Positions 17,281 to 45,875 of a DNA stretch of 64,000 nucleotides are shown one piece after another (within the stretch, counting starts at the first letter, position 1; each line of letters opens with the position of its first letter). The stretch comes from Sphingopyxis sp. MWB1 (GTDB taxonomy: Bacteria > Pseudomonadota > Alphaproteobacteria > Sphingomonadales > Sphingomonadaceae), in contig NZ_JQFJ01000002.1 of assembly GCF_000763945.1 (NCBI RefSeq), positions 1,973,501-2,037,500 on the forward strand. Direction: 5' to 3'. Position numbers and translations under genes: made by a program. Below the pieces are notes generated by a model. The model saw nothing but the letters and a program-made list of their open reading frames with translations. It was not told where the DNA came from and made no database searches.

Positions 17281-18582
17281 TCAATCGACGACCTTGCCGC
17301 GCGCCATCACAAAATCAACATTTTTAAGGACGCGTACATCGGCAAGCGGGTCACCGGCGACCGCAATGATATCAGCGCTCTTGCCCGGCGCGATCGTGCC
17401 AATTTCATTGGCTAGACCCAAAAGGTCGGCGGCATTGACCGTCGCGGCCTTCAGCGCTTCGACCGGGGTCATGCCATGCTGGACCATCAGTTCAAACTCG
17501 TCGGCGTTGCGGCCATGTTTCGACACGCCGGCATCGGTTCCGAACGCCACCCGCACGCCGCGCGGGACCAGCGTTTCAAGGCTTTTTCCGGTGATCGAGA
17601 TGCGCCATTTGATCTTGGCCAGCACATCGGGTTCATAGGAATCGGGATTGGCGGCAAGCCGTTCCTTATAGCCGTTCACCGTCGAGAGTGTGGCCACATA
17701 ATAGGTTTTCGACTTCGCCCATTGGTCGATCGTTTCGGGATCGAGGATCGTGCCATGTTCGATCGAGTCGGCGCCCGCCGCCAGCGCAAGGCGAATACCG
17801 TCGGCGCCATGCGCGTGAACCGCCACTTTTTTGCCGAACATATGCGCGGTATCGACGATGGCACGCGCTTCATCGTCGAACATCTGCTTGCCAAGCCCCG
17901 CACCGATGCGGCTGTTGACGCCGCCGGTCGAGGCGAATTTTATCACATCGGCGCCGCGCCCGATCTGCTGGCGCACCACGCGGCGGCACTCCTCCGCGCC
18001 GTTGCAGGTATTCGCCGCCCCTTCGAAATAGGGGCGCAGTTCGTCGCGAAAGCCGAGCGCACCGTCCATATGACCCGACGTGCCCGAAATCGACACACCG
18101 GCATCGACGATGCGCGGCCCCAGCACCTTGCCCGCCGCCACGGCGTCGCGCAGCGCGAGCGTCGCCCCGTCGCCATCGCCCAGATTGCGCACGGTGGTGA
18201 AGCCTGCGCGCAGCGTCTTCATGCCATTGGCCTGCGCATTGAGCGCCTGCGCTGCCGGGCTGAGCGTCACGCGTTCGAGCTGCCCCGCAATGCCGCCGGC
18301 ATCGCTGGTCAGATGAACATGACTGTCGATCAGGCCGGGCAGCACATATTTATCCTTGAGATCGATCAGCGTCGCCCCCGGCGCGGCGGGCTGAAAACCG
18401 TCGACTACCGCCACAATCCGTCCATTTTCCACGATGATGGTCGATGCGCCGCGCACCGCCTTGCCCGGTTCCGCCATCAACTGGCCCGCGTGAATAACCG
18501 TGCGTGTGCTTTCTTGTGCGAGAGTAGGTGCGGCAAGCGAGACCGTCGCCACTGCAGCGGAAAGGAAGGAAAGACATTTCAT
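17281..18582 (-). CDS. Exported metal-dependent amidohydrolase (Xaa-Pro dipeptidase/imidazolonepropionase-like)
   Basis: A 433-residue amidohydrolase-superfamily protein. An N-terminal signal peptide (MKCLSFLSAAVATVSLAAPTLAQ) points to the periplasm. Metal-binding motifs are visible: DSHVHLTSD around residue 85, a Lys in DVIKFASTGG (candidate carboxylated Lys), KVAVHAHGADG, SIEHGT and FGTDAGV. Sphingomonad relatives are often annotated as Xaa-Pro dipeptidases, but the substrate is not settled by sequence. It is followed closely by the Ntn-hydrolase gene, suggesting a two-gene operon for peptide or amide breakdown. Confidence 0.85.
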   Translation of the reverse strand: MKCLSFLSAAVATVSLAAPTLAQESTRTVIHAGQLMAEPGKAVRGASTIIVENGRIVAVVDGFQPAAPGATLIDLKDKYVLPGLIDSHVHLTSDAGGIAGQLERVTLSPAAQALNAQANGMKTLRAGFTTVRNLGDGDGATLALRDAVAAGKVLGPRIVDAGVSISGTSGHMDGALGFRDELRPYFEGAANTCNGAEECRRVVRQQIGRGADVIKFASTGGVNSRIGAGLGKQMFDDEARAIVDTAHMFGKKVAVHAHGADGIRLALAAGADSIEHGTILDPETIDQWAKSKTYYVATLSTVNGYKERLAANPDSYEPDVLAKIKWRISITGKSLETLVPRGVRVAFGTDAGVSKHGRNADEFELMVQHGMTPVEALKAATVNAADLLGLANEIGTIAPGKSADIIAVAGDPLADVRVLKNVDFVMARGKVVD

Positions 18583-30844: not shown

Positions 30845-31444
30845 TTATTGTGGCGCAAGGCCGCTGGCGCGCAGCCAGGCGAGAAGCGGGAGCATGGGCA
30901 TGCCAATGATGGTCCAAGGGTCGCCCTCTACACGGTCGAACAATTGCACCCCCGCGCCTTCGATTTCATAGCAGCCCACCGTCCAGCGAATATTCTCCCA
31001 GTGGGAAGCGACATAATCGGCGATGAAGGCGTCCGACAAGGGACGCATCCATAATTTCGCCTGACCGATGAAACGCCAGACAGGCACGCCGTCGCGGGCG
31101 GCGACTACGGCGCTGAACAAACGGTGGCGTTGCCCCGCCATGGCGCGCAGATGCGCCGCCGCCTCCTTGGGACTTTCGGGTTTGGACAGCATCGTCCCGT
31201 CATCCAGTGCAAGCGTGGAATCGGCGCCGATCACCGTGATCCCCGGCAGCCGCGCGGAAATCTTAATCGCCTTTGCCTCAGCCAGCGCATCGGCGATGTT
31301 GCGCGCGCCCTGCCCATCGGCACGAAGAGCGGCGGTCAATGCCTCTTCATCGATATGGGCAGGCGTTGCCTCGAACGCGAGCCCGGCCGCGCGCAGCATG
31401 GCCACCCGGCCACTGCTCTGCGAAGCGAGAAGCAGGCGCGTCAT
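30845..31444 (-). CDS. Maf-family nucleoside triphosphate pyrophosphatase
   Basis: A house-cleaning pyrophosphatase of the Maf/YceF fold that removes non-canonical or excess nucleotides. It has 199 residues. The N-terminal loop reads LLLASQSSGRVAML in place of the usual SxSPRR, and GADSTLALDDG replaces the common GADQ/GADT. The catalytic-site context remains recognisable (PESPKEAAAHLRAMAGQRHRL, YEIEGAGVQLFDRVEGDPWTIIGMP). Substrate preference is uncertain because of these changes. The start overlaps the ppsR stop (ATGA). Confidence 0.88.
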   Translation of the reverse strand: MTRLLLASQSSGRVAMLRAAGLAFEATPAHIDEEALTAALRADGQGARNIADALAEAKAIKISARLPGITVIGADSTLALDDGTMLSKPESPKEAAAHLRAMAGQRHRLFSAVVAARDGVPVWRFIGQAKLWMRPLSDAFIADYVASHWENIRWTVGCYEIEGAGVQLFDRVEGDPWTIIGMPMLPLLAWLRASGLAPQ

Positions 31445-32253
31445 GCCGTCCCCCGATCTTCGACCAGCTTGATGACCGCGGCTGCGGTTTCCTCGATCGA
31501 ACGCCGGGTCACGTCGATCACCGGCCACCCATTATCGGCGAACATCCGGCGCGCAAAGGCAATCTCAGCCTTCACCCGTTCGTCATCGACATAGGCGGTT
31601 TCGGGGGCCTGATTGAGCGACAAGAGGCGATTGCGCCGCACCTGCACCAGCCGGTCGAGGCTGGTCGTCAGCCCGACAATCATCGGCTTTTTAAGGTGAA
31701 ACAAGCTGTCGGGCGGCGGAGATTCGGGAACGATCGGGATATTTGCCGTCTTGTATCCACGGTTTGCGAGATAGATGCTCGTCGGCGTTTTCGACGTCCG
31801 CGATACTCCGGCAAGAACGATATCGGCCTGCTCCCAATTTTCCCAGCCGATGCCATCATCATGGGCGACGGTAAATTGTATGGCCTCGACCCGCGCGAAA
31901 TAGGCGGCATCAAGCACATGCTGCCGCCCGGGACGTGCCTTGGCTTCCTGACCGAGCATGCGGGACAACGCATCGGTAACGGCGTCGAGCGCGGGAACGA
32001 TCGGCAGCCCTTGAGCGCTGGCCCGCTGTTCAAGGCTGGCGCGCAATTCCCCGTTAACCAGAGTGAACAAAATCATCCCCGGACTGGCCTGCACCTCGGC
32101 CATGATCCGGTCGAGATGCGATTCCGATCGCACCATCGGCCAGAAATGGCGGACCACTTCGACATCATCGAACTGCGCAATGGCCGCCTTGGCAATATTT
32201 TCCAGCGTTTCGCCCGTAGAGTCGGATATAAGATGCAGGTGAAGTCGGCTCAT
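31441..32253 (-). CDS. ppsR: Pyruvate,phosphate dikinase / PEP synthase regulatory protein (DUF299)
   Basis: A bifunctional Ser/Thr kinase and Pi-dependent phosphorylase that switches PEP synthase or pyruvate,phosphate dikinase off and on. It has 270 residues. It starts MSRLHLHLISDSTGETLE; the P-loop-like GVSRTSKTPTSIYLANRG lies around residue 150 and KPMIVGLTTSLDRL around residue 190. It is the first gene left of oriC. The homologue (known as RP001 in Rickettsia) flanks the origin in Caulobacter and Rickettsia together with hemE, which supports the origin call. The target enzyme is not in this window. Confidence 0.93.
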   Translation of the reverse strand: MSRLHLHLISDSTGETLENIAKAAIAQFDDVEVVRHFWPMVRSESHLDRIMAEVQASPGMILFTLVNGELRASLEQRASAQGLPIVPALDAVTDALSRMLGQEAKARPGRQHVLDAAYFARVEAIQFTVAHDDGIGWENWEQADIVLAGVSRTSKTPTSIYLANRGYKTANIPIVPESPPPDSLFHLKKPMIVGLTTSLDRLVQVRRNRLLSLNQAPETAYVDDERVKAEIAFARRMFADNGWPVIDVTRRSIEETAAAVIKLVEDRGTA

Positions 32254-32323
32254 CACATCACCATGGGACGCGCATGACCGAAAAGGCAAGCGGGGAGAAA
32301 GGACGTGATACTCACCCAGGGCC

Positions 32324-32332
32324 TGTGGATAA
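32324..32332 (-). other. DnaA box, 9/9 match
   Basis: TGTGGATAA on the plus strand, i.e. TTATCCACA on the minus strand. It is oriented opposite to the other two perfect boxes. Confidence 0.88.
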
Positions 32333-32403
32333 AACTGGCATAAGCAGGGGACGCTTCGGGCAAAGCAGATATATCCCCAGCCTCACCGATTCCGCTCCGC
32401 CCC

Positions 32404-32412
32404 TTATCCACA
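32404..32412 (+). other. DnaA box, 9/9 match
   Basis: Exact TTATCCACA. Its start is 20 bases from the next box, so both lie on about the same helix face. Confidence 0.9.
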
Positions 32413-32423
32413 AGGAATGAATC

Positions 32424-32432
32424 TTATCCACA
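32424..32432 (+). other. DnaA box, 9/9 match
   Basis: Exact TTATCCACA in tandem with the preceding box. It is followed 3 bases later by the weak inverted match TGTGAATTA. Confidence 0.9.
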
Positions 32433-32559
32433 GGCTGTGAATTACGGGAATGGGCGTTCCGACTCTGAAGGCAAGATGGGCTTTGCAGGAGTCAAGCTGT
32501 TGGCAAAAGCGGTGCCTCCCCCTAAAGCCGGGCTTATCCGCCCGCCAACAAACCACCAC

Positions 32560-32579
32560 AATATATTTAAATATATTAT
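32560..32579. other. AT-only stretch with 16-bp palindrome (candidate unwinding element)
   Basis: Twenty consecutive A/T bases in a GC-rich genome. Positions 32561-32576 form a perfect palindrome (ATATATTTAAATATAT). It is the obvious duplex-unwinding candidate of the origin. It lies 24 bases ahead of hemE, so a role in the hemE promoter is also possible. Confidence 0.6.
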
Positions 32580-32603
32580 GAAGAGAGAAAGAAGGGCCGC
32601 GTA

Positions 32604-33626
32604 ATGGCGTCACCGAAAAGCCTGCTGGCAACGCTGCGGGGAGCTCGGCAGGAAAGATCTTCCCTGTGGCTCATGCGCCAGGCCGGGCGCTATCTTCCTG
32701 AATATCGGGCGCTGCGCGAAACCAAGGGCGGCTTTCTCGAGCTTTGCTATGATCCGGAATCGGCCGCCGAGGTGACGTTGCAGCCGATCCGGCGCTTTGG
32801 GTTCGACGGCGCCATTCTCTTTTCGGACATATTGGTAATCCCCCACGCCCTGGGGCAGCATCTATGGTTTGAAGCCGGGGAGGGGCCGCGCCTCGCGCCT
32901 GCGCTTGTCGACAGCGCGCTCGATCAATTGCAGGCTGCACCTGAACGGCTCGAGCCCGTCTATGCAACCGTCGCCCGGGTCGCGGGCGCCTTGCCTTCGG
33001 AAACAAGTTTCCTGGGCTTTGCGGGAAGCCCCTGGACAGTCGCGACCTATATGGTGGCGGGGCAGGGGTCGAAGGATCAGTCCGCAGCGCGGCGCATGGC
33101 CTTCGGCGATCCCGCTGCCTTTGGTGCGCTGGTCGAGGCGATCATCGACCTGTCGGTTACCTATTTGTCGGGACAGATCGAACATGGCGTCGAGGCGGTG
33201 CAATTGTTCGACAGCTGGGCCGGCAGCCTCAGTCCCGCCCAGTTCGAACAATGGGTCATCGCTCCCAACGCCGAAATCGTCCGCCGGCTGAAGGCGCTGC
33301 ACCCCGACACGCCGATCATCGGTTTTCCCAAGGGGGCCGGAGGCAAGCTTCGCGCCTATGCCGATGAAAGCGGCGTCGATGCGATCGGCCTGGATGAAAC
33401 GGTCGATCCCGCTTGGGCCGACGCAAATTTGCCCGATCATTTGCCCGTCCAGGGCAATCTCGATCCGCTCGCGCTGGTGGCGGGAGGCGAAGCGCTCGAC
33501 CGGGCGATTGATCGCATCCTTGCAGCTTTTCCGTCGCGGCCCCATATCTTCAACCTTGGCCATGGGATCGTGCCCGACACGCCCATTGCCCATGTCGAAC
33601 ATCTGATCAAGCGCGTGCGCGGATAG
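32604..33626 (+). CDS. hemE: Uroporphyrinogen decarboxylase
   Basis: It decarboxylates uroporphyrinogen III to coproporphyrinogen III in heme synthesis. It has 340 residues. WLMRQAGRYLPEYR near residue 23 is the substrate-binding signature, ILFSDILVIPHALG follows, and NLGHGIVPDTP is near the C-terminus. ATG at 32604 lies just after the AT-rich part of oriC, with GAAGGG about 9 bases upstream. It is followed 4 bases later by hemJ. Its position at the origin is conserved in alphaproteobacteria. Confidence 0.97.
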   Translation: MASPKSLLATLRGARQERSSLWLMRQAGRYLPEYRALRETKGGFLELCYDPESAAEVTLQPIRRFGFDGAILFSDILVIPHALGQHLWFEAGEGPRLAPALVDSALDQLQAAPERLEPVYATVARVAGALPSETSFLGFAGSPWTVATYMVAGQGSKDQSAARRMAFGDPAAFGALVEAIIDLSVTYLSGQIEHGVEAVQLFDSWAGSLSPAQFEQWVIAPNAEIVRRLKALHPDTPIIGFPKGAGGKLRAYADESGVDAIGLDETVDPAWADANLPDHLPVQGNLDPLALVAGGEALDRAIDRILAAFPSRPHIFNLGHGIVPDTPIAHVEHLIKRVRG

Positions 33627-41494: not shown

Positions 41495-41510
41495 CGTTTC
41501 ACGTGGAACA
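41495..41510. other. parS-like centromere site 1 (15/16 match)
   Basis: CGTTTCACGTGGAACA directly after the mnmE stop codon. It matches TGTTTCACGTGGAACA except at the first base, and keeps the CACGTG core of ParB sites. It lies between mnmE and mnmG. Confidence 0.85.
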
Positions 41511-41560: not shown

Positions 41561-43423
41561 ATGGAAAGCGCTATGAATTTTGATGTCATCGTCGTTGGCG
41601 GTGGACATGCCGGCACCGAGGCCGCCGCGGCTGCTGCGCGGTTGGACGTGCGCGTCGGCCTCATCAGCTTCAACCCCGATTTGATAGGAAGCATGTCTTG
41701 CAACCCGGCAATCGGCGGTCTGGGCAAGGGCCATTTGATTCGGGAGGTAGATGCGCTCGATGGATGGATGGCGCGCGCCGCCGACGCCGCGGCCATTCAT
41801 CACCGCATGCTCAATGCGTCCAAAGGCGCTGCGGTGCAGGGGCCGCGCGTCCAGGCTGATCGCCTTCTATATCGCCACGCTATTCAAGCCCTACTCGCGG
41901 CCGAGAATAATATCGAAGTTGTGGCGGGGGGGGCCGCCGCCTTGCGTTTGTCGCCTGCAGGCGATGTAGTGAAAGGCCTTGAGCTTGCGGATGGCCGCCT
42001 GTTAAACGCACCCGCCGTCATTCTTGCGACAGGCACATTTCTGGGCGGACGCATGTTTCGCGGCGAAGAGCGGATGGAAGGGGGGCGCATAGGAGAGGCG
42101 GGTGCATCGCGACTTGCAGAGCAGCTACGTGCCGCGCAATTGCCAATGTCGCGACTTAAGACAGGCACGCCGCCGCGCCTTGATGGTCGGACCATTGATT
42201 GGGCGCGCCTTGAAGAGCAGCCTTCGGATGATGCACATTGGACTTGTTCCACGTGGAACAACCAACGGCAACAGCCGCAGATATTCTGCGCCATCACGCG
42301 AACCAACGGCGATTCTCATCAGATTATCAGCGATAATCTCCATCGTTCGCCCTTGTTTACGGGTGCGATTGGTGCTGCTGGTCCGCGCTATTGCCCTTCC
42401 ATTGAAGATAAAATCCATCGTTTCGCGGATCGCGACGGGCACCAAATTTTCTTGGAGCCTGAGGGGCTGACGACGCATCTTGTCTATCCCAATGGCGTAT
42501 CCACCTCTTTGCCCGCCGATGTTCAGTTGGCGATGCTTCGGACGATGGAGGGGCTCGAACAAGTAGAGATGGTCGTTCCCGGCTATGCGGTTGAATATGA
42601 TCATATCGACCCACGCGCGTTGGACCGCAGCCTGCAACTTCGAGCGATATCGGGGCTTTATTGTGCGGGGCAGATTAACGGTACGACCGGATATGAGGAA
42701 GCTGCGGCTCAGGGATTGGTGGCAGGCGCTAACGCAGCGCTGCGTGTTCGGGGGCGGGAGTCGTTACTTCTTGATCGCAGCGAATCCTATATTGGCGTGA
42801 TGATCGACGATCTAGTGCTGCAAGGCGTCAGCGAGCCTTATCGCATGCTCACTGCTCGCGCCGAATATCGCCTTCGCCTGCGGGCCGATAATGCGGCTAC
42901 GCGGCTCACTCCCAAAGGGGTAGAGATCGGTCTGGTACGGCCATCGACGGCGCGACTGTTCGAGCGCCGGATGGCTATGCGAAGCCGGCTGGAGGCCCTG
43001 CTTGATCAACCGGTACCCAAGGAAGACTATGCAACCATGTCTCTCCCGCTTCCTGGCGACGGGATTCCGCGACGTCGTATTGATCTGTTGCGCTATCCTG
43101 AGGTGACGATGGAAAGCCTTGCGTTGTTGGCGCCGGAGTTAGCGGATGCTGATCGGGATATAGCAGCCGAGGTGGAGCAGGACGCTCACTATGCACCCTA
43201 TCTTGCACGTCAGGAGGCCGATCTGCGCGCGCTGCACGCCAATGAAGCAATCATCCTTGATCCCGATCTTGATTATGCGGCTATCGGCGGCCTTTCGCGA
43301 GAGATGGTTGAGCGTTTGTCCCGGGCGCGCCCGGAGACTTTGGGGCAGGCCGCTCGCATCGACGGGGTGACGCCGGCTGCGTTGACTGCGATCATGGTCT
43401 TCAGCCGTCGCCGCGCGGCCTGA
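41561..43423 (+). CDS. mnmG: tRNA uridine-5-carboxymethylaminomethyl modification enzyme MnmG (GidA)
   Basis: The FAD- and tetrahydrofolate-dependent partner of MnmE. It has 620 residues from ATG 41561; ATG at 41573, giving [11 protein letters not shown], is an equally plausible start. The dinucleotide fold [38 protein letters not shown] and [13 protein letters not shown] are diagnostic. Around residue 230 the sequence WTCSTWNNQ is encoded partly by a perfect parS palindrome (42245-42260). It is part of the mnmE-mnmG-rsmG-parA-parB cluster. Confidence 0.96.
42245..42260. other. parS centromere site 2 (perfect palindrome, inside mnmG)
   Basis: TGTTCCACGTGGAACA, a fully symmetric 16-bp match to the ParB-site consensus TGTTNCACGTGNAACA. 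It lies inside the mnmG coding region, where it encodes part of C-S-T-W-N. Confidence 0.95.
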
Positions 43424-43434
43424 GGCGGCGGACT

Positions 43435-44133
43435 ATGAATATGACACGGGACGGGACGGCCCCAGCGCTTCTGGCGGACGAAGAAAGCGCGCGTCGCTGG
43501 GTATATTTGCTGTGCGGGGGCGATGATGCGCGTTGGAAAAAGTTGGAAGATTATGTTGCCTTGGTGGCGTCGGAAAATGAACGCCAGAATCTAGTTGCTG
43601 CGTCGACTCTCCCGCATATTTGGGTCCGACATATTGCCGACAGCGCACAGCTCTTGCTTCTTGACGCGGCAAACACGGATGAGCGGCAAAATCGTCGGGG
43701 ACTTTGGCTTGATCTGGGAAGCGGTCCCGGCCTGCCTGGGCTGGTCGTGGCGATATTGAGCGATCGGCCTGTTGCATTGGTTGAATCGCGCAAGCGGCGT
43801 TGTGATTTCTTGCGAGAGGCGGCGCAGAAACTTGATCTGACTCATGTCGAGGTGGTTGAAGATCGCTTGGAGCGCGTCGCGAATAGAGCGGTAGCAACGA
43901 TCAGCGCCCGCGCTTTTGCGCCTCTGCCCAAGCTCATCACATTGTCCACACGTTTTTCCACCGACTCAACACGCTGGCTGCTTCCAAAAGGGCGGAATGC
44001 GATGAAGGAACTGGCGCTGCTTCCGAAAGCATGGCAGAGAATGTTTCACGTGGAACAGAGCCGAACCGACGCTGATAGCTACATTCTGGTTGGCGAAGGG
44101 CGCATCGGCGCAGCGCAGCGAGGGACGCGATGA
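43435..44133 (+). CDS. rsmG: 16S rRNA (guanine-N7) methyltransferase RsmG (GidB)
   Basis: It methylates G527 of 16S rRNA with S-adenosylmethionine; in other bacteria its loss gives low-level streptomycin resistance. It has 232 residues. ERQNLVAASTLPHIWVRHIADSAQL and the SAM loop DLGSGPGLPGLVVAI near residue 92 are diagnostic, with SARAFAPLPKL later. The C-terminal region contains FHVEQ, encoded by a parS site at 44042-44057. The stop overlaps the parA start (ATGA). Confidence 0.95.
   Translation: MNMTRDGTAPALLADEESARRWVYLLCGGDDARWKKLEDYVALVASENERQNLVAASTLPHIWVRHIADSAQLLLLDAANTDERQNRRGLWLDLGSGPGLPGLVVAILSDRPVALVESRKRRCDFLREAAQKLDLTHVEVVEDRLERVANRAVATISARAFAPLPKLITLSTRFSTDSTRWLLPKGRNAMKELALLPKAWQRMFHVEQSRTDADSYILVGEGRIGAAQRGTR
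44042..44057. other. parS centromere site 3 (inside rsmG)
   Basis: TGTTTCACGTGGAACA, a 16/16 match to the TGTTNCACGTGNAACA consensus, although the two arms differ at one base (T vs G-side). It encodes FHVEQ near the RsmG C-terminus, 73 bases ahead of parA. Confidence 0.95.
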
Positions 44134-44912
44134 TCAAGATCGCAGTGGCCAATCAAAAGGGTGGCGTGGGAAAAACCACGACGGCGATTAATCTGGCGAC
44201 CGCGCTAGCGGCAACCGGTTGGCGCACGCTGATCATTGACCTGGATCCGCAGGGTAACGCATCAACAGGGTTGGGCATTGCGCAAGCCCAGCGTGAAAGT
44301 TCGAGCTATGAATTGCTTCGCGGAGATGCCGGGCTAGCGGATTGTGCGGTGGCGACGGCAGTCCCGCGGCTCGACATCGTTCCGGCGACGGTGGATCTGT
44401 CGGGTGCCGAAATAGAGCTGATTGAATATGGCGATCGGCTTCATCGTTTGCAGCAGGCCCTTGCCAGTGCCGAAGCAGGGCGGTGGGATATTTGCCTGAT
44501 CGACTGTCCGCCCTCGCTCGGCATGTTGACACTCAATGCGCTAATCGCGGCGGAATCGCTGATCGTGCCCTTGCAGTGCGAATTTTTTGCATTGGAAGGG
44601 CTCAGCCAGCTTTTGACGACGGTCGAACGGGTGCGCGGACGGTTTAATTCCGAACTAAGTATTTTGGGTGTGGCGCTGACGATGTTTGATCGGCGCAACC
44701 GGCTGACCGATCAAGTTTCCGACGATGTTCGCGAATGCTTGGGTCCTGTGGTGTTTGAAACCGTCATCCCTCGCAATGTTCGCTTGTCCGAAGCTCCGAG
44801 TCACGGGCTGCCGGCCTTGATCTACGACCATCGCTGCCCCGGATCGGCCGCTTACATCGCGCTGGCACGCGAATTGATTGGCCGCTTGTCCAATGTTCGG
44901 AAGGCGGCGTAA
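44130..44912 (+). CDS. parA: Chromosome partitioning ATPase ParA (Soj)
   Basis: A deviant Walker-type ATPase that binds the nucleoid and moves the ParB-parS complex to the new pole after replication. It has 260 residues. The deviant Walker A motif KGGVGKTTTAINL is at about residues 10-22, with LDPQGNASTGLG and DCPPSLGMLTLNAL further on. It is coupled to rsmG by a 4-base overlap and abuts parB. The chromosomal form is supported by length, lack of an N-terminal HTH, and nearby oriC and parS. Confidence 0.97.
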   Translation: MIKIAVANQKGGVGKTTTAINLATALAATGWRTLIIDLDPQGNASTGLGIAQAQRESSSYELLRGDAGLADCAVATAVPRLDIVPATVDLSGAEIELIEYGDRLHRLQQALASAEAGRWDICLIDCPPSLGMLTLNALIAAESLIVPLQCEFFALEGLSQLLTTVERVRGRFNSELSILGVALTMFDRRNRLTDQVSDDVRECLGPVVFETVIPRNVRLSEAPSHGLPALIYDHRCPGSAAYIALARELIGRLSNVRKAA

Positions 44913-45875
44913 ATGACTGAAAAGAAAGAGGAACCATCCCCCCCTTCCGCACGGAAACGCCCCTCGGGGCTGGGGCGCGGGCTGAATGCGCTTTTTGGTG
45001 ACGTGGCGGTCGAGACGCCGGTGCTTGCCAGCCCGGGTACCGCGACCAAAACATCTTCGTCCAGTGGCGGAGAGTCGGTTCAGCATGTCGATGTCGGGGC
45101 CATTCATCCGCTTCCCGGGCAGCCGCGACGTCATTTTGATGAAACGGCTATTACCGAATTGTCCGAATCGATCGCTGTCCGTGGACTGCTCCAGCCGATC
45201 ATCGTGCGGCGTGCGCCTGATGGTCAGGGCTATCAGCTTGTCGCGGGAGAACGGCGCTGGCGCGCAGCGCAGCGGGCGGGTTTGCACCGCATCCCTGCAC
45301 TGGTGCGGGCTCTTGATGATGCCGCCACCTATGAGATTGCGCTGGTTGAGAATATCCAGCGACAGGATCTAAATGCGATTGAAGAAGCGAGCGCTTATCG
45401 CAAATTGATCGAAGATTTTGGACATAATCAGGAAGCGTTGGCGCGGCTCGTCGGTAAATCACGCAGCCATGTCGCCAATTTGATGCGACTTCTGGATCTG
45501 CCCGCAGCCGTGCAGGATTTGGTCAGCGAAGGATCCTTGGCCATGGGGCACGCCCGTGCGCTGATCGGCGCGGAAAAGGCGGAAGTTATCGCCCATAAGG
45601 CGGTCAAGGAAGGTTTGTCGGTCCGTGCGGTGGAAGCGCTGGTCCGCACTGCGCGCCGGGGAGAAAATTCGCCTGTACCCGTTGCAAATAATGGCGATGG
45701 CGCGGCCGGACGGGACCCTGACATTGTTGCGGTCGAACGCCATTTGTCTGAACTGCTGGGGATCGGTGCCGCGATCAGCTATGCGGGCGAAGGCAAGGGG
45801 GCGCTCACACTGAAATTTGCCTCGCTGGACCAGCTCGATATGATCTGTCAGCGCCTGTCAGGCGAAGCTATTTGA
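44913..45875 (+). CDS. parB: Chromosome partitioning CTPase ParB (Spo0J)
   Basis: It binds parS and spreads as a CTP-dependent clamp to form the centromere complex. It has 320 residues. RPSGLGRGLNALFGD near residue 18 is the ParA-interacting N-terminus. PGQPRRHFDETAITELSESI and GERRWRAAQRAG form the CTP-binding domain, LVGKSRSHVANLMRLLDLP is the helix-turn-helix, and the C-terminal dimerisation domain ends the protein. It starts directly after the parA stop and is followed by a strong terminator. Confidence 0.97.
   Translation: MTEKKEEPSPPSARKRPSGLGRGLNALFGDVAVETPVLASPGTATKTSSSSGGESVQHVDVGAIHPLPGQPRRHFDETAITELSESIAVRGLLQPIIVRRAPDGQGYQLVAGERRWRAAQRAGLHRIPALVRALDDAATYEIALVENIQRQDLNAIEEASAYRKLIEDFGHNQEALARLVGKSRSHVANLMRLLDLPAAVQDLVSEGSLAMGHARALIGAEKAEVIAHKAVKEGLSVRAVEALVRTARRGENSPVPVANNGDGAAGRDPDIVAVERHLSELLGIGAAISYAGEGKGALTLKFASLDQLDMICQRLSGEAI

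Follow-up and report, generated by a model that had tools for sequence, protein, structure and literature searches.

A DnaA-box cluster between ppsR and hemE at the probable chromosomal replication origin of Sphingopyxis sp. MWB1

The chromosomal replication origin of Caulobacter crescentus (Cori) is bounded by hemE and a COG1806 gene (PMC1914354), and the origin (oriC) of Sphingopyxis granuli TFA has been predicted beside hemE (PMC4741004); the location is therefore already published in kind for the genus. We examined the corresponding locus of Sphingopyxis sp. MWB1 in a 64,000-nucleotide stretch of DNA (the window; contig NZ_JQFJ01000002.1, here C2, positions 1,973,501 to 2,037,500, forward strand). 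The subject is the gap between ppsR (COG1806) and hemE at window positions 32254 to 32603. An original prediction had called it a probable chromosomal oriC in the position known from Caulobacter, and that parallel agrees with the boundary genes of Cori. Our analysis indicated that the gap is almost certainly the DnaA-dependent chromosomal oriC of Sphingopyxis, in a form standard for the genus.

DnaA boxes, GC skew and synteny at the ppsR-hemE gap

C2 comprises 2,542,167 bases of a five-contig draft genome of 3,118,428 bases. The gap extends over 350 bases from the ppsR start (its ATG ends at 32253) to hemE at 32604, corresponding to C2:2,005,754-2,006,103. An alternative upstream TTG in the ppsR frame at 32289 would leave 314 bases. 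The features are listed below, with per-site counts from 35 Sphingopyxis origins (the Sphingopyxis set).

32254..32603, unstranded: probable oriC, the ppsR-hemE intergenic region, recognised by exact boxes, sampled skew and conservation in the genus
32324..32332, minus strand: DnaA box 1, exact TTATCCACA; exact in 30 of 35 origins
32404..32412, plus strand: DnaA box 2, exact; exact in 16 of 35 origins, with TTGTCCACA in 15 and TTTTCCACA in 4
32424..32432, plus strand: DnaA box 3, exact; exact in 29 of 35 origins
32371..32379, plus strand: weak 7/9 site ATATCCCCA; this form is not conserved, and TCATCCCCG or TCATCCCCC stands in 27 of 35 origins
32436..32444, minus strand: weak 7/9 DnaA-like site TAATTCACA; identical in 17 of 35 origins
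32534..32542, plus strand: weak 7/9 DnaA-like site TTATCCGCC, beside the AT-rich stretch; exact form in 1 of 35 origins, (T)TGTCCGCC in 20 of 35
32560..32579, unstranded: AT-only 20-mer, predicted duplex-unwinding element; the stretch is AT-rich in the 35 origins (mean 0.78)
31441..32253, minus strand: ppsR (COG1806/RP001; PEP synthase/PPDK regulatory protein), left boundary; NCBIfam NF003742, 329.7 bits, cut-off 225
32604..33626, plus strand: hemE (uroporphyrinogen decarboxylase), right boundary; TIGR01464, 390.4 bits, cut-off 303

The three boxes are all the exact boxes of the window, and boxes 2 and 3 start 20 bases apart. The original prediction had described exactly this arrangement (one inverted box at 32324 and a tandem pair at 32404 and 32424), an AT-only 20-mer and a gene-free region of 350 bases, and all of these were recovered, with the reservation that the TTG start would shorten the region. 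It had counted two 7/9 boxes, whereas the gap contains three. Single near-match boxes mean little, because 10 sites with one mismatch allowed were found in the window against 4.9 expected. Genome-wide, TTATCCACA occurred 7 times (4 forward, 3 reverse), and a reversed control pattern 8 times. Three of the seven fell within 109 bp in the gap, and the other four were single and scattered; the expected count of equally close triples among seven randomly placed boxes is about 1e-7. Thus, by the genome-wide search for exact boxes, the cluster occurs once in the genome. The AT-only 20-mer, the predicted unwinding element, was longer than any other AT-only run in the window (next, 12) or in 800 kb of sampled genome (longest, 18). 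The exact 20-mer was present in 1 of the 35 Sphingopyxis-set origins.

Cumulative GC skew was calculated from 39 stretches of 20 kb on C2 together with the window (844 kb), with interpolation between them; the original prediction had named such a skew minimum as its check. Between about 0.66 and 2.0055 Mb the curve dropped, though with reversals, and it rose thereafter. Its interpolated minimum lay at C2:2,005,501, at the locus, and its maxima at about 0.36 and 0.66 Mb. The lowest block stops 253 bases before the gap, at an edge set by our choice of window cut. Partition genes and sites were found 9-13 kb from the gap.

41495..41510, unstranded: parS-like site with one mismatch, between mnmE and mnmG
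42245..42260, unstranded: parS site in mnmG
44042..44057, unstranded: parS site in rsmG, just ahead of parA
44130..45875, plus strand: parA (44130-44912) and parB (44913-45875); parB, TIGR00180, 193 bits, cut-off 58

The parA product gave ParA/RepA-like matches under the cut-offs and was named from these and from its position before parB. The rsmG product passed its NCBIfam cut-off, and mnmE and mnmG were named by eye and from the identical order in an annotated Sphingopyxis record. As for the boundary genes, the ppsR protein fell under the cut-off of the narrower PpsR model NF049928 (154 of 350). The nearest HemE relatives were three Sphingopyxis records and one order-level metagenome-assembled genome, at 89-91% identity.

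The arrangement was well preserved in relatives. In a genus set of 30 loci (the best of 60 genomes), hemE and ppsR flanked a gap of 339-488 bp in every case, and all 30 gaps carried the three boxes in like order, with spacings of 80-82 and 20 bases and no more than one mismatch per box. All three were exact in 10 of the 30, and an AT-only run of at least 10 was present in 19. The box layout differed in a more distant genome with the same genus label (L169). Among further loci, the gap between both genes was obtained in 100 of 105. We assembled 109 non-redundant related gaps, 29 from the Sphingopyxis set and 80 others. These contained 120 exact boxes in 67 gaps against a shuffled mean of 0.1, and 106 of the gaps had a box with one mismatch or none. 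Across a class sample, ppsR adjoined hemE in 12 of 26 loci. Ten of these 12 came from outside the family, of which 8 had a box with no more than one mismatch and 1 had a full CtrA site.

The boxes might instead belong to a DnaA-regulated promoter region of hemE or ppsR, with the origin at another place such as dnaA. In Caulobacter, DnaA also regulates transcription (PMC4468827), and a fixed TTGGCA...TAA spacing in relatives could represent a hemE promoter. However, among 177 intergenic regions of 150-800 bp sampled from 864 kb, the oriC gap included, only one carried an exact box, the oriC gap itself. These regions came from a simple gene caller, which may miss short genes and trimmed the oriC gap to 32290-32603. 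The persistence of gene order and boxes in relatives also argues against a mere promoter, as does the sampled skew minimum, which lies at the gap and not at dnaA. An origin at dnaA, present in one copy at C2:2341694, was rejected on this ground and on its distance of 336 kb. We consider the promoter explanation very improbable.

Several points weigh against placing oriC in the gap. The fine skew within the window was noisy, and its lowest value (-483 at 18,487) lay below that near 33,000 (-454), so the skew resolves the origin only to about 15 kb. The 844 kb sampled for the skew are part of a five-contig draft, and several blocks on the left arm of the curve had the opposite sign. The DoriC database put the S. 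alaskensis origin elsewhere, a placement that PMC4741004 calls an error. As to methylation control of the origin, deletion of ccrM in Caulobacter leaves initiation and the DNA-content profile unchanged, according to PMC3973325. Taken together, the single exact-box cluster, the sampled skew minimum, parS/parAB, the conserved synteny and boxes, and the published genus prediction (PMC4741004) agree, so we assign oriC to the gap, as originally predicted.

The anatomy of the gap, the uniqueness of its exact-box cluster, the sampled skew minimum and the conservation were observed directly; what follows is drawn from established DnaA-oriC biology. DnaA-ATP would bind the three high-affinity boxes, spread over the weak sites and melt the AT-only stretch beside hemE. 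The helicase would load at the melted stretch, replication would proceed bidirectionally, and the copies would be segregated by ParB bound to the parS sites close by. More tentatively, a conserved 15-mer with the DnaA cluster on one side and the unwinding element on the other may be the site of an IHF-like bend, and CcrM methylation of four GANTC sites may modulate initiation.

CtrA sites and related loci

The original prediction had noted no evident CtrA site (TTAA-N7-TTAA), and we found none anywhere in the window. CtrA control was rejected for the related gaps as well. Full sites were present in 3 of the 109 (3 against a shuffled mean of 0.3, largest 2), and TTAACC was under expectation (3 versus 12.0). 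Sites with one mismatch numbered 14 against 7.8 in shuffles, within the shuffle range, as the largest of 60 shuffles also gave 14. G-boxes (TGATCCACA) were absent from the 109 gaps, with one in L128, outside the 109. The oriC gap thus shows neither CtrA sites nor G-boxes, the features of a Caulobacter-type CtrA-controlled origin. TCCCCA, which we take to be the core of the weak Caulobacter W-box, occurred 104 times in the 109 gaps against 30.6 in shuffles.

According to the review PMC4468827, CtrA sites have not been seen in alphaproteobacterial origins save those of Caulobacter species and possibly Rickettsia prowazekii; they have been predicted in several Rickettsiales origins (PMC1914354). 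In Sphingomonas melonis, loss of CtrA is reported to have no negative effect on growth or viability (PMC8116508). The missing CtrA sites are therefore ordinary here, because such sites are rare in related origins, the review concurs and CtrA is dispensable in S. melonis. The proposal of a compact origin under different control holds as far as the absence of CtrA sites is concerned; it does not describe a peculiarity of this origin, as that absence is usual in relatives.

Some relatives had no ppsR beside hemE. In one genus of the family (g12, which we would only guess to be Sphingomicrobium), all 14 sampled genomes lacked a ppsR match. Four named loci also had no ppsR beside hemE. In L125 (Sphingomicrobium sp.) and L128 (Sphingomonas sp. 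BN140010), six GANTC and one or two DnaA-like boxes preceded hemE; L109 had four GANTC and no box there, and L096 neither. Two records under other names, L115 (RPSH01000003.1, "Bacillus sp. 2B10") and L100 (JAGSNX010000003.1, "Microvirga sp. SRT01"), contained sphingomonad-like hemE origins, with HemE identities of 68% and 71%, respectively. Their names or samples look wrong for this reason.

The ppsR-hemE locus was also found on two records filed as plasmids, NZ_CP076395.1 (Sphingopyxis indica pMC4, 404 kb; L207, L209, L210) and NZ_CP155751.1 (Sphingomonas parapaucimobilis, 425 kb; L208). Both had chromosomal neighbours such as dnaQ, rho, mnmE and mnmG, and the pMC4 origin gap matched the window (80% covered, 72% identity). 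At 1-50, 295-320 and 354-404 kb, pMC4 also carried ileS, trb genes in an inverted duplicate and a replication initiator. Either fission of the chromosome moved oriC to a secondary replicon, or the assemblies are at fault, perhaps at the inverted repeat.

GANTC sites and the conserved 15-mer

Four GANTC sites, overlooked in the original prediction, lie in a 106-bp stretch of the gap, the last overlapping a conserved 15-mer.

32388..32392, unstranded: GANTC (GATTC), predicted CcrM site; kept in 33 of 35 Sphingopyxis-set origins
32419..32423, unstranded: GANTC (GAATC), immediately next to DnaA box 3; kept in 22 of 35
32461..32465, unstranded: GANTC (GACTC); kept in 35 of 35
32489..32493, unstranded: GANTC (GAGTC), overlapping the conserved 15-mer; kept in 35 of 35
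32491..32505, plus strand: conserved 15-mer GTCAANNTGTTGGCA; exact in 61 of 109 related origins

For four orders including Sphingomonadales, GANTC has been described as more frequent near the origin, on a scale of 1% of the chromosome (PMC9836097), and GANTC motifs are known in the Caulobacter origin (PMC3973325). The present data add that such sites occur within the origin proper and that their positions are fixed in the Sphingopyxis set. In the titles, abstract openings and passages covered by our literature search, we found no account of GANTC sites in a sphingomonad origin at the scale of nucleotides, which is no proof of absence. The genome encodes GcrA and a CcrM homologue (match to the CcrM structure 6pbd over residues 30-374, 8.4e-155), so the enriched sites have a candidate enzyme, and their methylation is predicted.

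We weighed whether the sites serve hemE or ppsR transcription (GcrA/CcrM) or mirror a general intergenic excess, with no role in initiation. Three longer intergenic regions also had four GANTC, and one of 248 bp had three (12.1 per kb); the density of the oriC gap is thus among the highest, not alone. On the other side stand 12.7 sites per kb in the called gap against 2.22 in the 177 sampled regions and 1.35 in 800 kb of sampled genome, and 457 sites in the 109 related gaps against 155 (standard deviation 12) in dinucleotide shuffles, an approximately three-fold excess. It was seen both in the Sphingopyxis set (129 versus 39 in 29 gaps) and in the others (328 versus 114 in 80 gaps). GANTC showed the strongest excess among 16 palindromes of its form, AGNCT (170 versus 84) and TANTA (83 versus 48) also being in excess, and was depleted in the 300-bp coding flanks of these loci (218 flanks; 252 versus 352). 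We give the transcriptional or general-excess explanation almost an even chance.

Conservation alone is no proof of selection for methylation, because many other 5-mers were equally kept and the central N of the sites at 32388, 32461 and 32489 was invariant too. Of 346 5-mers, 52, 29 and 29 were kept equally well or better than these three sites, respectively, and the site at 32419 ranked 107. Abutment of GANTC on DnaA boxes as a general rule was rejected: of 282 boxes counted with one mismatch allowed, only 18 had such a neighbour. Two further groups of four GANTC within 106 bp occurred in the 800 kb sampled, at C2:728544 (L008:8544) and C2:555151 (L056:15151); by eye, one lies in an ilvB-like coding sequence and one apparently at a tRNA gene.

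More tentatively, CcrM methylation may modulate the origin through the four sites. A role of hemimethylation has been proposed at ori2 of Agrobacterium, a RepC-dependent origin (PMC11514494). A bolder proposal, which we regard as unlikely, is that sphingomonad origins have exchanged CtrA control for a switch based on CcrM methylation. Once a fork had passed, hemimethylation of the fixed GANTC sites, which lie next to box 3 and, in Sphingopyxis, within the IHF-like 15-mer, would then alter DnaA or IHF binding and delay re-initiation, in a manner resembling Dam/SeqA.

The 15-mer was exact in all 29 Sphingopyxis-set gaps and in 32 of the 80 others; 44 of the 80 had it with at most three mismatches, and it was absent or more divergent in 36. 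The MWB1 genome has one exact copy, at 32491-32505, and four one-mismatch copies elsewhere. Across 196 genomes of the order, the exact pattern gave 46 matches in 44 genomes, and the reversed control 5. As 22 of the 46 were not within 400 bases of a listed ppsR (one may adjoin it across a contig end) and 24 were, the pattern is not confined to origins. We found the 15-mer described nowhere in the titles, abstract openings and passages of the literature searched, which is again no proof of absence.

The consensus for IHF binding is WATCAA-N4-TTR. The core of the 15-mer, TCAA-N4-TTG, fits it with a single mismatch (32490-32502), and this near-match is conserved in the Sphingopyxis set; the exact consensus was present in only 2 of the 109 gaps. 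The IHF-like core is overlapped by a GANTC site in all 29 Sphingopyxis-set gaps and in 16 of the 80 others. The 15-mer lies between the DnaA cluster and the unwinding element, the place at which IHF acts in Escherichia coli oriC, and it may, more tentatively, be an IHF-type DNA bend. An equal rival, to which we give somewhat less than an even chance, is that the 15-mer is the -35 region of a hemE promoter with some upstream sequence. The 15-mer contains TTGGCA, which in 44 anchored relatives not belonging to the Sphingopyxis set is followed by a TAA block at a constant distance, and it starts 111-116 nt before hemE in Sphingopyxis and 92-167 nt in other relatives. Against this, the -10 hexamer is poor and, by eye, conservation extends up to GTCAA, past the usual -35 box. 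Many of the 35 gaps without the 15-mer, a number of them from Erythrobacter, Novosphingobium and kin (within L089-L176), have another shared block just ahead of the AT-rich stretch: CACAGGGCC in 16 of 35, often followed by AACAGACTC (12 of 35).

Whichever role they have, the GANTC sites and the 15-mer are concrete mutable targets for initiation timing where CtrA is dispensable, as in S. melonis (PMC8116508). The same targets bear on the action of CcrM at DnaA-dependent origins, which was not seen in Caulobacter (PMC3973325). For the genome itself, the likely origin is fixed by several independent lines, and its missing CtrA sites are ordinary for relatives.

Comparison with known origins

The order of elements resembles that of E. 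coli oriC, namely an unwinding element, an adjoining box, an IHF-like site and a DnaA cluster. The boundary genes in E. coli are different, and GATC and Dam there correspond to GANTC and CcrM here.

The Caulobacter Cori shares with the Sphingopyxis origin its boundary genes, hemE and COG1806, an AT-rich stretch (PMC1914354) and GANTC motifs (PMC3973325), and has an IHF site where an IHF-like site was noted here. The box layout is unlike that of Caulobacter, as originally predicted: in Cori there are five CtrA sites, and its DnaA sites, the G- and W-boxes, bind with moderate and very low affinity (PMC1914354, PMC4468827), whereas the Sphingopyxis origin has three exact boxes and no CtrA site. 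The oriC of S. granuli TFA and of other Sphingomonadaceae resembles the present origin in its place beside hemE, its conserved DnaA boxes and its predicted unwinding element (PMC4741004).
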